From Herbiconiux solani NBRC 106740 (GTDB taxonomy: Bacteria; Actinomycetota; Actinomycetes; Actinomycetales; Microbacteriaceae): 64,000 nucleotides of DNA. The translations under genes and the position numbers were made by a program. Location of the stretch: positions 558,001-622,000 of the forward strand of contig NZ_BCST01000001.1 in assembly GCF_001571005.1 (NCBI RefSeq). Direction: 5' to 3'. Of the stretch, positions 10,765 through 14,921 are shown piece after piece (the stretch's first letter is position 1; each line of letters opens with the position of its first letter). Under the pieces are notes generated by a model, which was given only the letters and a program-made list of their open reading frames with translations, was not told the DNA's origin and did no database searches.

Positions 10765-11721
10765 ATGCATGACGAGGCCTGGGACCGCACTCCGATCGAA
10801 CCGCAGAGCGTCGACGCCCCCCTGTCGACCGCAGCCGTCTTCCTGGTCGTCACGATCGCCGACGGAGACGACGCCGTCGCCACCGTGCGCGACGTGATCT
10901 CCGACATCGGCGGCCTGGTCAGGGCCGTAGGCTTCCGCGACCTGAACGCGCACCTCTCCTGCAACGTGGGCATCGGCTCGGATGCCTGGGACCGGCTGGG
11001 CCAGACCTCGCGCCCCGCGCAGCTGCGGTCGTTCTTCGAGGTCAAGGGACCGGTGCACACCGCCGTGTCGACGCCCGGCGACCTGCTGTTCCACATCCGC
11101 GCTGAGCGCGCCGACTTCGTCTTCGAGCTCGAGCGGCTCATCCTCACGACCCTCGGTGACGCCGTCACGGTCGCCGACGAGGTCAACGGGTTCCGGTACT
11201 TCGATTCGCGCGACCTGCTCGGGTTCGTGGACGGCACCGAGAACCCGACCGGCGCATCCATGGCCCGTGCCTCCCTGATCGGCGAGGAGGATCCGGAGTT
11301 CCGCGGCGGCAGCTACGTGGTGGTGCAGAAGTACCTGCACGACCTGACCGCCTGGACCTCGCTGCCGGTGGAGCTGCAGGAGAAGATCATCGGCCGCACG
11401 AAGCTCGACAACGTCGAGCTCGACGACGCGGTCGAGGGCCAGAAGGCGCACAAGACGCTCGCCACGATCGTCGACGCGAACGGCGTGGAGCACGACATCC
11501 TCCGCGACAACATGCCCTTCGGCCGCCCGGGTCAGGACGAGTTCGGTACCTATTTCATCGGCTACGCCCGCGACCTCTGGGTGATCGAGGAGATGCTGCG
11601 GAACATGTTCGTCGGCAACCCGGTCGGATCGTACGACCAGATCCTCGACTTCTCGACGGCTGTGACGGGCACGACGTTCTTCGTGCCGTCGAACGACGTG
11701 CTCGAAAGCCTCGGCGGCTAG
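10765..11721 (+). CDS. Dyp-type heme peroxidase (YfeX-like, cytosolic)
   Basis: The 318-aa protein shows the DyP signature GFVDGTENP near residue 155 with the catalytic Asp of GxxDG. A His in GQKAHKTLATI is the probable proximal heme ligand, and the distal Arg is in ILRDNMPFG, followed by GTYFIGYARDLWVIEEML. There is no Tat or Sec signal, so it is YfeX-like rather than EfeB-like. DyP enzymes use hydrogen peroxide to oxidise dyes, phenolics or porphyrins. No encapsulin gene is adjacent and the protein lacks an obvious cargo tail. It is divergent from the PadR gene and shares its control region. It ends tail to tail with the LLM monooxygenase. Confidence 0.92.
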   Translation: MHDEAWDRTPIEPQSVDAPLSTAAVFLVVTIADGDDAVATVRDVISDIGGLVRAVGFRDLNAHLSCNVGIGSDAWDRLGQTSRPAQLRSFFEVKGPVHTAVSTPGDLLFHIRAERADFVFELERLILTTLGDAVTVADEVNGFRYFDSRDLLGFVDGTENPTGASMARASLIGEEDPEFRGGSYVVVQKYLHDLTAWTSLPVELQEKIIGRTKLDNVELDDAVEGQKAHKTLATIVDANGVEHDILRDNMPFGRPGQDEFGTYFIGYARDLWVIEEMLRNMFVGNPVGSYDQILDFSTAVTGTTFFVPSNDVLESLGG

Positions 11722-11753: not shown

Positions 11754-13129
11754 GCCGAACGCCCCACCCTGAAGTCGTACCCGCGATGGGTCTCGGGCAG
11801 CTGCGTGCAGCCCACGCCGAACAGGCGCTCGCGCAGGGTGTCCCCCTCGTACTCGTGGCGGGCGAGCCCCCGGTCGCGGAGCACCGGGAGCAGCAGGTCG
11901 ATCAGGTCGTCGTAGGTTTCGGGAACGAGGTGCGGCTGGATGAGGAAGCCGTCGGCCCCGGTCGCCGCGACGAACTCCTCGATCTGGTCGGCGACCTCCT
12001 CGGGCGCCCCCACGAACACGCTGCCGTTGATGCCGGTGCGTCGGAAGTTCTCGAGGATGTCGCGGACCAGCGGCGCCGGCTTCCCGTCGGCTCCCAGGTA
12101 GCGCTCGAGGTTGGACTGCCCGAGCTCGGTGCTCTTCTGCGCGATCGGCTTGTCCGGATCCAGCGCGAGCAGGTCGACCCCGGTGTTGCCGGCGTAGATC
12201 GCGGCGGCGCCCTCGTCGGTCGACATCGCGAGCATCTCGGCGTGCTTGGCCCACGCCTCCTCGCTGGTCGGGGCGGTGATGAACAGGGCGCCCACCATGA
12301 CCTTGATCGCGTCGGCGGGGCGCCCCGCGGCGACCGCGCTCTCCCGGATGCCGGCGATCGTGCGGGCCACGGTCGCGGGCTCCCCTCCGCCCACGAAGAC
12401 CGCCTCGGCGTTGCGGCCCGCGAACTGACGGCCCCGCCCGGAGGCCCCGGCCTGCACGAGCAGGGGCGTGCGCTGCGGCGAGGGCGGCAGGTTCAGGATG
12501 CCGTCGGTCCGGAAGTAGGGACCCTCGTGATGCACCATGTGCACCTTCGCCGGGTCGGCGTAGACAGCGGACTCCTTGTCGAGAACGAGGGCGTCGTCCT
12601 CCCACGACCCCTCCCACAGGGTGAGGTTCACGTCGAGGTAGTCGTCGGCCATGTCGTAACGGAGGTCGTGCGCGATCAGCTCCTTGCCCATCAAGGCGGC
12701 GACGGTCGCTCCCGACGACCCGGTGACGATGTTCCAGCCGATCCGCCCGTCGGTGAAGTGGTCGAGCGTGGCGAACCGGCGCGCGTTGGCCGCGGGCGGC
12801 TCGACCGTGGTGGAGGTGGTCAGGATGTAGCCGAGCTTCTCGGTCACGGCGGCCAGGGCCGAGATCAAGGGCATCGGGTCGCCGTGCGGGATGCCCCGGC
12901 CCTCGCGCACCGAGGCGGGAAGCAGTTCGCCGTCGAGCGCCGGGAAGCCGTAGCTGTCAGCGAGGAAGAGGAAGTCGAGCTTCGCGTCCTCGAACTTCCG
13001 CGCCAGCGCGGTCCAGTGGGCGAGCTTGGTGAAGTTCGCCGACTCGTCGCGCGGACTCTGCCAGGCCGAGCCGACCGTGCCGTTCGGACCGATGTACTGG
13101 AAGATGCCGAAGACCAGGGGGCTGCTCAT
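11750..13129 (-). CDS. NtaA/SnaA/DszA-family FMNH2-dependent monooxygenase
   Basis: The 459-aa luciferase-like (LLM) flavin oxidoreductase shows the NtaA/DszA pattern: SAWQSPRDESANFTKLAHW near residue 23, LDFLFLADSYGFP, and TSTTVEPPAANARRFATLDH with TDGRIGWNIVTGSSG. Enzymes of this family use reduced FMN from a separate reductase to oxidise nitrilotriacetate, EDTA, sulfonates or organosulfur compounds; the substrate here is unknown and no flavin reductase is adjacent. The ATG at 13129 gives the normal N-terminus. It is divergent from an XRE-cupin regulator, and a perfect palindrome lies three bases before its start codon, so the regulator probably controls it. Confidence 0.9.
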   Translation of the reverse strand: MSSPLVFGIFQYIGPNGTVGSAWQSPRDESANFTKLAHWTALARKFEDAKLDFLFLADSYGFPALDGELLPASVREGRGIPHGDPMPLISALAAVTEKLGYILTTSTTVEPPAANARRFATLDHFTDGRIGWNIVTGSSGATVAALMGKELIAHDLRYDMADDYLDVNLTLWEGSWEDDALVLDKESAVYADPAKVHMVHHEGPYFRTDGILNLPPSPQRTPLLVQAGASGRGRQFAGRNAEAVFVGGGEPATVARTIAGIRESAVAAGRPADAIKVMVGALFITAPTSEEAWAKHAEMLAMSTDEGAAAIYAGNTGVDLLALDPDKPIAQKSTELGQSNLERYLGADGKPAPLVRDILENFRRTGINGSVFVGAPEEVADQIEEFVAATGADGFLIQPHLVPETYDDLIDLLLPVLRDRGLARHEYEGDTLRERLFGVGCTQLPETHRGYDFRVGRSA

Positions 13130-13132
13130 GGC

Positions 13133-13153
13133 AATATTTATCGCATAAATATT
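13133..13153. promoter_or_regulatory. AT-rich perfect palindrome between monooxygenase and XRE-cupin genes
   Basis: AATATTTAT (13133-13141), CGC, ATAAATATT (13145-13153) is a 21-bp inverted repeat with perfect 9-bp arms. The composition is strikingly AT-rich for this genome. It lies in the 55-bp divergent gap and covers the ribosome-binding position of the monooxygenase gene, so a bound repressor would block it. TAAATA on the minus strand, about five bases before the ATG, could be a -10 element of a leaderless transcript. Confidence 0.8.
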
Positions 13154-13184
13154 TTTCCGGGCTGTTTCGGGAGGTTTCGACGAG

Positions 13185-13790
13185 ATGAACGACGACCGGC
13201 GACGCACGACGGGGCCGCTCGACGACGAGGCCGTCTCGATGGGCGCGCGCATCCGGAGCCTGCGGACAGAGCGCGGCCTGACGCTGGTACAGCTCGCCGT
13301 CGCGGCCGGGATGTCGCAGCCGTTCCTCAGCCTGGTCGAGCGCGGCCATGCCCGGCTCAGCCTCGCCTCGATGGCGAAGCTCTCCGCGGCTCTCGGCATC
13401 CGCTCGGGCGCCCTGCTCGCCGAGCCGGCGGCCAGCCGGTCGACCGCGGACGGCGTGGATGTCGTGCACCGGGCGGACGCGCGCGTCCCGTCGGGAGCGC
13501 GGTCGGTCTGGCAGCTCGCTCAGCTGCCGGGAGGACTGTTCGGCATCGAGATGTGGGGCAGCGAAGAGGTGTTCTCGGAGACGGCGGTGCACGACGAGGA
13601 CGAGTTCCTCTACCTGCTCGAGGGAAGCCTCGAAGTCGGATTCGAGGTCGGCACGCCCGACGGCGCGGTGCACCGGCTTGGCGCCGGGGACTCGCTGACG
13701 GTCGCGGCGGGCATCCCGCACGGGTGGCGGGCCGTGGGCCCCGAAGGGTACCGGGTGGTCGTGGTGACCTCCGGGGGCCGCAGCCACTGA
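13185..13790 (+). CDS. XRE-family regulator with C-terminal cupin domain
   Basis: The 201-aa protein has an N-terminal Xre-type helix-turn-helix (IRSLRTERGLTLVQLAVAAG, SQPFLSLVERGHARLSLASM) at about residues 15-75. A cupin barrel follows at about 115-195 (HDEDEFLYLLEGSLEVGFEV, LGAGDSLTVAAGIPHGW). This HTH-cupin layout is common in local repressors of catabolic genes such as PuuR-like proteins, where the cupin senses a small molecule or metal. It is transcribed away from the monooxygenase gene across the 21-bp palindrome, which is the best candidate for its operator. Confidence 0.9.
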   Translation: MNDDRRRTTGPLDDEAVSMGARIRSLRTERGLTLVQLAVAAGMSQPFLSLVERGHARLSLASMAKLSAALGIRSGALLAEPAASRSTADGVDVVHRADARVPSGARSVWQLAQLPGGLFGIEMWGSEEVFSETAVHDEDEFLYLLEGSLEVGFEVGTPDGAVHRLGAGDSLTVAAGIPHGWRAVGPEGYRVVVVTSGGRSH

Positions 13791-14681: not shown

Positions 14682-14810
14682 TTCATGCTCCTTTGCACTG
14701 GTGCTTTCGCTGGCTCGGATGCTTTGTTGCACTCGATGCCAGAAGGGTACTCCGCAGCCCTCGCGGGCGCGACCCCCGGCACGGTCGGCGATCTTCGGGC
14801 AGAAACGACG

Positions 14811-14845
14811 AAACCCCCGCCGATCTCTCGATCAGCGGGGGTTTT
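14811..14845 (-). terminator. Intrinsic terminator downstream of tRNA-Ala
   Basis: A stem of about 12 bp (CCCCCGCTGATC paired with GATCGGCGGGGG, one mismatch, minus strand) with loop GAGA is followed by TTTCGTCGTTTC. The plus strand also ends in TTTT, so it may act in both directions between the SDR leader and the tRNA. Confidence 0.8.
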
Positions 14846-14848
14846 CTG

Positions 14849-14921
14849 TGGACCCGAGGGGATTCGAACCCCTGACCCCCTGCATGCCATGCAGGTGCGC
14901 TACCAGCTGCGCCACGGGCCC
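14849..14921 (-). tRNA. tRNA-Ala (GGC anticodon)
   Basis: The 73-nt cloverleaf is complete: acceptor GGGCCCG/CGGGTCC with one G-U pair, D arm GCGC-AGCTGGTA-GCGC, anticodon stem CCTGC/GCAGG enclosing ATGGCAT (anticodon GGC), and T arm AGGGG-TTCGAAT-CCCCT with discriminator A. No CCA is encoded. Alanine identity is supported by the G3-U70 acceptor pair. A terminator follows within four bases. Confidence 0.97.

Follow-up and report, generated by a model that had tools for sequence, protein, structure and literature searches.

A conserved A/T-armed palindrome in Herbiconiux, very probably the operator of an XRE-cupin regulator next to an NtaA/DmoA-family monooxygenase gene

We analysed a window of 64 kb (G000:C1:558001-622000) from the 3.85-Mb genome of a member of the genus Herbiconiux, in which an A/T-armed palindrome separates the divergent genes of an XRE-cupin regulator and a flavin-dependent monooxygenase. 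Judging from its sequence and its distribution among relatives, the palindrome is almost certainly a docking site of the neighbouring regulator. We consider it highly probable that it is the single, dedicated operator of this protein, which would act as a local repressor over the core promoter of the monooxygenase gene, with nitrogen control by GlnR in addition. By analogy with characterised XRE-cupins, the regulator very likely keeps the monooxygenase gene off as long as an inducing compound is absent. As a bacterial switch, the system is well conserved and of an ordinary kind.

The palindrome and its gene pair

An earlier, sequence-only reading of this DNA had described a perfect 21-bp palindrome with arms of pure A/T in a genome of about 70% GC, and we could confirm this description: the two 9-bp arms, separated by a 3-bp spacer, are 100% complementary (Table 1). 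The window has a GC content of 70.5% and contains only five all-A/T 9-mers; since these overlap and all lie inside the palindrome, it is far beyond chance. No other match to AATATTTATNNNATAAATATT with three or fewer mismatches is found elsewhere in the 3.85-Mb genome, and the 17-bp core, with three mismatches allowed, gives one additional, chance-like site. The palindrome had also been said to cover the start region of the monooxygenase gene. It does lie in the divergent gap, but the start codon itself (CAT at 13127-13129) is outside, 3 bp from its end.

Table 1. Features of the divergent locus, in positions of the window
Feature	Position	Strand	Remarks
NtaA/DmoA-family FMN-dependent (luciferase-like) monooxygenase, 459 aa	11750..13129	-	TIGR03860, PF00296
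Palindromic operator (predicted)	13133..13153	.	AATATTTAT-CGC-ATAAATATT; conserved 19-bp core 13134-13152
Possible -10 of monooxygenase promoter, AATATT	13148..13153	-	inside palindrome; putative
Possible -10 of regulator promoter, TATTTT	13150..13155	+	overlaps palindrome edge; putative
GlnR-type box TTCAT-n6-GAAAC	13174..13189	-	21 bp from operator core, upstream of monooxygenase promoter; overlaps regulator start codon
XRE-cupin regulator, 201 aa	13185..13790	+	Pfam HTH_3 + Cupin_2

The regulator combines an N-terminal HTH_3 domain (40.4 bits, Pfam cut-off 23) with a C-terminal Cupin_2 domain (38.6 bits, cut-off 27.2), and both parts are seen in its AlphaFold2 model. Its recognition helix reads S44-QPFLSL50 (helix 45-52 in the model). 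In the alignment, the cupin residues H136, E140 and H179 are invariant in all 12 regulator orthologs and would allow a metal site in this domain. The best PDB sequence match is the Vibrio cholerae HTH_3 regulator 1Y9Q (E 7.4e-11), the only listed entry that spans both domains. Both 1Y9Q and PuuR are alike to our protein in full-length architecture, whereas the target pathway of PuuR is a different one. That the regulator is PuuR itself was ruled out, as it reaches only 33.9 bits (E 2.1e-8) against the model NF007408, which has a cut-off of 211. A fold search with the regulator model returned HppE enzymes and 1Y9Q at the top, with high rmsd and TM of about 0.4-0.5; these poor matches are probably a problem of domain orientation at a pTM of 0.58, and we built nothing on them.

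The monooxygenase belongs to its family with 448.4 bits against the TIGR03860 cut-off of 279.7. Its closest solved relative is 5W48 (E 1.5e-115, 390 bits), but the scores of the dimethyl-sulfide monooxygenase DmoA (333 bits) and the alkane monooxygenase LadA (313 bits) are not much lower. We take 5W48, which the PDB table itself calls a riboflavin lyase, to be RcaE of Microbacterium maritypicum. RcaE is described as an FMN-dependent riboflavin monooxygenase in the consulted part of PMC12746152. Because DmoA and LadA score near the riboflavin lyase, we claim no substrate for the monooxygenase. The organosulfur or chelate ligands proposed in the sequence-only reading found no support, and a riboflavin lyase as nearest solved relative does not fix the substrate.

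A conserved operon was considered as a clue to the substrate and rejected. Among 14 compared loci we found no additional genes beside the pair that are conserved across genera, and no additional family is common to more than 7 of these loci. The most frequent neighbour is a DyP peroxidase (7 of the 14 loci), which adjoins the monooxygenase in six and lies about 4.5 kb off in L097. In the window, the DyP-type peroxidase gene (10765-11721) stands tail to tail with the monooxygenase gene, and there may be a functional link between the two. On the other side, a gene for a mycofactocin-coupled SDR-family oxidoreductase (TIGR03971, 13830-14687) directly follows the regulator gene on the opposite strand, and at about 14750-14920 there are overlapping short ORFs with translations of the kind that a tRNA gene typically yields.

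Distribution of palindrome and GlnR-type box in relatives

The regulator search and the motif pattern scan were run on the same sample of 299 family genomes, our own included. A close regulator ortholog (E <= 1.4e-63) is present in 11 of them, the next match having an E of 1.8e-31, and in all 11 it is divergent from a monooxygenase ortholog. Adding the contig L035 gives 12 pairs. Note that L032, L033 and L034 were dropped from the counts as the same loci as L004, L006 and L011, and that L041, with a match limited to the HTH, was not used. With the regulator as query, an order-wide scan of 396 genomes (E <= 1e-35) had our own genome as its sole match.

The core ATATTTAT-nnn-ATAAATAT is present in all 12 syntenic pairs, our own included, at 3-4 bp from the monooxygenase ATG. 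Both arms are intact in eight of the gaps, and each of the remaining four (L005, L007, L011 and L035) carries one arm substitution. Since the outermost pair of the 21-bp form is complementary in just 3 of the 12 loci, again counting our own (printed sequences), the conserved unit is the 19-bp 8-3-8 core and not the full 21 bp. The sequence-only reading had named the absence of the palindrome from such syntenic pairs as the finding that would count against it; with 12 of 12 pairs carrying the palindrome, its central claim, a dedicated operator of the adjacent HTH-cupin protein, stands well supported.

At zero or one mismatch, the motif occurs in 11 of the 299 genomes, which are exactly those with a close regulator ortholog, and as there is one site in each of them the regulator seems to be a local one. 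The core scan gave 12 genomes in total, including one unrelated match with two mismatches (G287). The relatedness of these genomes inflates the co-occurrence count; the split within one genus (labelled g8) is informative despite it, as regulator and motif are both present in G007, G153 and G203 and both absent from G090, G248 and G286.

Furthermore, there are monooxygenase orthologs without a close regulator ortholog, in G248 (78%) and G295 (73%), and no palindrome was found upstream of either. For this reason the palindrome goes with the regulator and not with the monooxygenase. It was likewise not found at two monooxygenase paralogs in G093 (61% and 56%), and for the genomes with more distant monooxygenase matches (45-51%), which were covered by the pattern scan, no motif match was obtained except the one of G093, which lies at its pair. 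In G248, the flanking families F5 and F7 are the same as around the same-genus pairs. A DUF2090 gene takes the expected place of the regulator there (L086:3727-4822, G248:C13); the palindrome is absent, and the GlnR-type box before the monooxygenase is kept.

This box is the second element of the gap; neither it nor the sister operators described below had been recognised in the sequence-only reading. The pattern [GT]TnA[CT]-n6-G[AT]AAC has a single match in the window, the one in Table 1, and the narrower TTCAYN6GWAAC is found at three places in the genome. In 9 of the 12 pairs the monooxygenase strand has the wider pattern 21-22 bp outside the core; it is shifted to 1 bp from the core in L012 and missing in two pairs, L008 and L010. 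The form GTNACN6GAAAC has 14 occurrences in our own genome, compared to one for the reversed control. Among these sites, which were partly inspected, one lies upstream of an apparent glutamine synthetase gene (L101, identified by sequence only). At the regulator-less orthologs of G248 and G295 the box is retained as TTCACACGTCGGAAAC and TTCACCCGGGCGAAAC, although regulator and palindrome are absent, and therefore the two elements are separable, the palindrome going with the XRE-cupin and the box with the monooxygenase. Before the two monooxygenase paralogs of G093 the box was not found.

According to the consulted part of PMC3087709, GlnR boxes of actinomycetes are of the gTnAc-n6-GaAAc kind, and the ChIP-peak motif matches include TTCACGTGCCCGAAAC and TTCATCCATCCGTAAC. 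The Herbiconiux box, a relaxed version of gTnAc-n6-GaAAc, has the form of TTCACGTGCCCGAAAC and TTCATCCATCCGTAAC, and a GlnR-like protein (L178) is encoded in the genome; binding and regulation in Herbiconiux are predictions. The best PDB matches of L178 are 8hih (E 6.9e-81) and 4o1i (E 2.4e-34), both named 'transcriptional regulatory protein', which we take to be mycobacterial GlnR. Against 4o1h, an entry that is named GlnR, the E value is 1.5e-24, and against MtrA it is 2.8e-23. L178 has no NCBIfam match above cut-off, and a literature search gave no article on these PDB entries. From these matches L178 is likely to be GlnR, although this is not settled. Its gene is followed by an acetyltransferase-like gene (L178:1087-2644, G000:C5), which presumably resembles mycothiol synthase.

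Sister XRE-cupins and the recognition helix

The regulator search also gave other XRE-cupins of the family, at 35-45% identity, which form sister groups. Most of them have a palindrome of the same 8-3-8 (19-bp) build with a different sequence, ATGTTGAT-nnn-ATCAACAT. These Microbacteriaceae proteins share with our regulator the operator build, the divergent promoter and a GTnAC-n6-GAAAC box that is usually 21 bp away; unlike in our regulator, His and Gln replace Gln45 and Leu50, and the sister in our own genome has no monooxygenase neighbour. With one mismatch or fewer, GTNACN6GAAAC is found in all 45 sister promoters examined (of 47), in 34 of them exactly, at 20-22 bp from the palindrome in 36 and at 32 or 43 bp in 9. 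L115, which repeats L039, and L037, where the best box has two mismatches, were left out of this count.

We compared helices and operators in a table of 59 loci (L039 and L115 are one locus, both counted here). All 12 proteins with the SQPFLSL helix have ATATTTAT half-sites. Among the rows with an SH[PS]F[LI]SQ helix, 39 of 42 have the ATGTTGAT palindrome with at most three mismatches, that is, 36 of 37 for SHPFLSQ, 2 of 4 for SHPFISQ and 1 of 1 (L117) for SHSFLSQ. Eight of eight additional loci also combine the ATGTTGAT form with His/Gln helices. Neither palindrome was found within the 59 loci at L118 (SHPFLSQ), L014 and L017 (SHPFISQ), L040, L126 and L128 (SQPFLSQ), L130 and L110 (SHPFLSL). 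At L014, L017, L118, L126 and L128 the upstream DNA reads as same-strand coding sequence, and these loci are uninformative because there is no divergent promoter upstream.

Two half-site positions distinguish the clades, position 3 with A or G and position 6 with T or G, and so do two residues of the recognition helix, 45 (Gln or His) and 50 (Leu or Gln). The differing residues are thus five apart and the differing bases three apart, and the distance from half-site position 3 to the dyad is 7 bp. We take this register of residues and bases to be that of Gln44 in the lambda repressor and of Gln28 and Gln33 in the 434 repressor. In the consulted parts of PMC3317979, PMC4653904 and PMC8163980 the residue contacts of these repressors are not spelled out. 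The parallel change of operator and helix is good evidence that the regulator would read the palindrome directly. In a tree of 66 proteins (L115 and L130 left out, L170 added) the SQPFLSL (Gln45/Leu50) proteins form one clade with a support of 98/98, so that the main contrast in operator and helix amounts to a single evolutionary event.

Some proteins have hybrid helices. The single His/Leu protein, L110, faces ATGTTTAC-CAG-GTAAACGA, which has four mismatches to the predicted hybrid (0 of 300 shuffles were equally good) and six to each of the parent forms; note that this fit was noticed post hoc and that n = 1. Such a rule is not supported by SQPFLSQ, the other hybrid class: L126 and L128 cannot be judged, and at L040, where a divergent neighbour is present, the best hybrid site has six mismatches, with 9 of 300 shuffles equally good. 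The result for L040 speaks against a simple code of helix and operator. We therefore put forward only tentatively, as a possibility that we would not bet on, a natural switch of two residues and two bases, in which residue 45 would read half-site position 3 and residue 50 position 6, L110 would be a hybrid, and the genome would have orthogonal operators, each with a GlnR-type box. If true, signals for substrate and nitrogen would be combined at one promoter. The specificity rule is attractive and unproven.

Two further XRE-cupin loci were noticed. In our genome, L090 (G000:C4:294714-295265; sisters L013, L036 and L161) has ATGTTGAT-nnn-ATCAACAT together with a GlnR-type box and would constitute a second XRE-cupin regulon. 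Its neighbours are a gene for a cytosine-deaminase-like amidohydrolase, followed by apparent ABC transporter genes, and a gene for a 2Fe-2S oxidoreductase; the translations at L036 are similar. The third XRE-cupin is the SHPFLSL protein L110 (L169:2664-5963, G093:C22) with the candidate operator given above. It adjoins a TIGR03860 NtaA/DmoA-family monooxygenase of its own and is therefore a second case of this type of regulator next to this enzyme family; the divergent gene is lipoprotein-like (no Pfam match). With L110 as query, a phylum-wide scan of 396 genomes (E <= 1e-22) gave matches in our own genome and G785 only, and no matching palindrome was seen in 520 bases at the G785 locus, L170.

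Promoters, proposed regulation and alternatives

On the side of the regulator, the candidate -10 element TATTTT is found in 6 of the 12 loci, and four more have the form T-A-n-n-n-T. For the monooxygenase no canonical TAnnnT -10 could be placed, and hence we infer the overlap of the operator with this promoter. The candidate AATATT was chosen by its distance of 10 bp from the GAAAC half-site, which is the same as that of TAGATT in the sister promoter L013. In all 12 loci the 20 nt before the monooxygenase start are without a Shine-Dalgarno-like word (GGAG, GAGG, AGGA or AAGG), and because of this the mRNA probably has no leader, or a very short one.

In the regulation that we propose, a dimer of the regulator would read the two ATATTTAT half-sites via Gln45 and Leu50 and, once bound, block RNA polymerase at the core promoter of the monooxygenase gene; a collision with the polymerase is expected because the operator sits immediately before the start codon. 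Since the operator probably overlaps the -10 of the regulator gene as well, the regulator would probably repress itself. A small molecule or a metal in the cupin domain may release it, and GlnR at the box 21 bp upstream would add activation under nitrogen limitation, so that cells short of nitrogen and exposed to the inducer would produce the monooxygenase.

The characterised XRE-cupins of Pseudomonas aeruginosa are, in the part of PMC7901475 consulted, local repressors that bind at least one intergenic region beside their own gene. PsdR, PauR, ErfA and others share with our regulator the XRE HTH plus cupin and the intergenic operator beside the own gene; the same part of that article gives them palindromic sites where these were determined, one or two targets for most, and sites in the core promoters of metabolic genes. 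The domain architecture, the adjacent palindromic intergenic site and the small number of targets per genome are all found here. Our system differs in that it is actinobacterial, has an NtaA/DmoA-family monooxygenase as target and a GlnR-type box alongside, and in that binding and repression are predicted. That the module is substrate-inducible, as the sequence-only reading had supposed, can fairly be inferred from the precedent of other XRE-cupins. We did not find the operator motif in the literature searched, and the consulted main text of PMC12565409 does not print it, its supplementary motif table aside.

The XRE-cupin could also bind the site as an activator of the monooxygenase gene, or as an activator/repressor switched by its ligand. 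By eye there is no good -35/-10 for the monooxygenase, and such a promoter could need help. However, an operator placed directly in front of the start codon has to overlap the core promoter, which is the position of a repressor, and a separate box of the activator type is already present upstream. In P. aeruginosa, all seven XRE-cupins whose regulon was determined are inhibitors, as far as the consulted part of PMC7901475 goes, and altogether we find an activator unlikely.

Alternatively, the palindrome may be no more than the AT-rich core of two divergent promoters, with no protein reading it as an operator. The plausible -10 elements of both genes are indeed overlapped, and over the 12 loci all 8 positions of the arm on the monooxygenase side are invariant, compared with 5 of 8 in the other arm. 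Yet both arms are longer and closer to invariant than a promoter needs, and the sister palindromes, which have the same build, contain G/C and sit apart from the -10. Moreover, no such sequence is present at the two close monooxygenase orthologs without a regulator, and on this ground plain promoter symmetry was rejected; we regard the shared promoter as very unlikely.

Binding by the neighbour is a prediction, and so the palindrome might be bound by another transcription factor. Against this, the motif with up to one mismatch is seen only in genomes with the regulator, and only beside it, across the 299 genomes, and from one sister clade to the other its sequence changes along with the recognition helix of the regulator. 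GlnR, for its part, would use its own, different box nearby. We hold another factor to be extremely unlikely. An RNA hairpin (a terminator or a translation control element) could be imagined from the perfect inverted repeat, but it was rejected because the arm changes in the 4 of 12 loci named above are one-sided and uncompensated, the A/T-only arms make it weak and it is located at the very beginning of the expected monooxygenase transcript, so that we give it almost no credence.

With the palindrome as the operator of the XRE-cupin repressor, an uncharacterised monooxygenase gains a concrete candidate regulator, a minimal operator and a logic of induction. The separable GlnR-type box points to nitrogen scavenging as the role of the enzyme, which is a lead to its substrate that is independent of guesses from the enzyme family. 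Finally, the sister groups constitute a natural experiment on the choice of operators by XRE recognition helices, with two differing residues and two differing base pairs.
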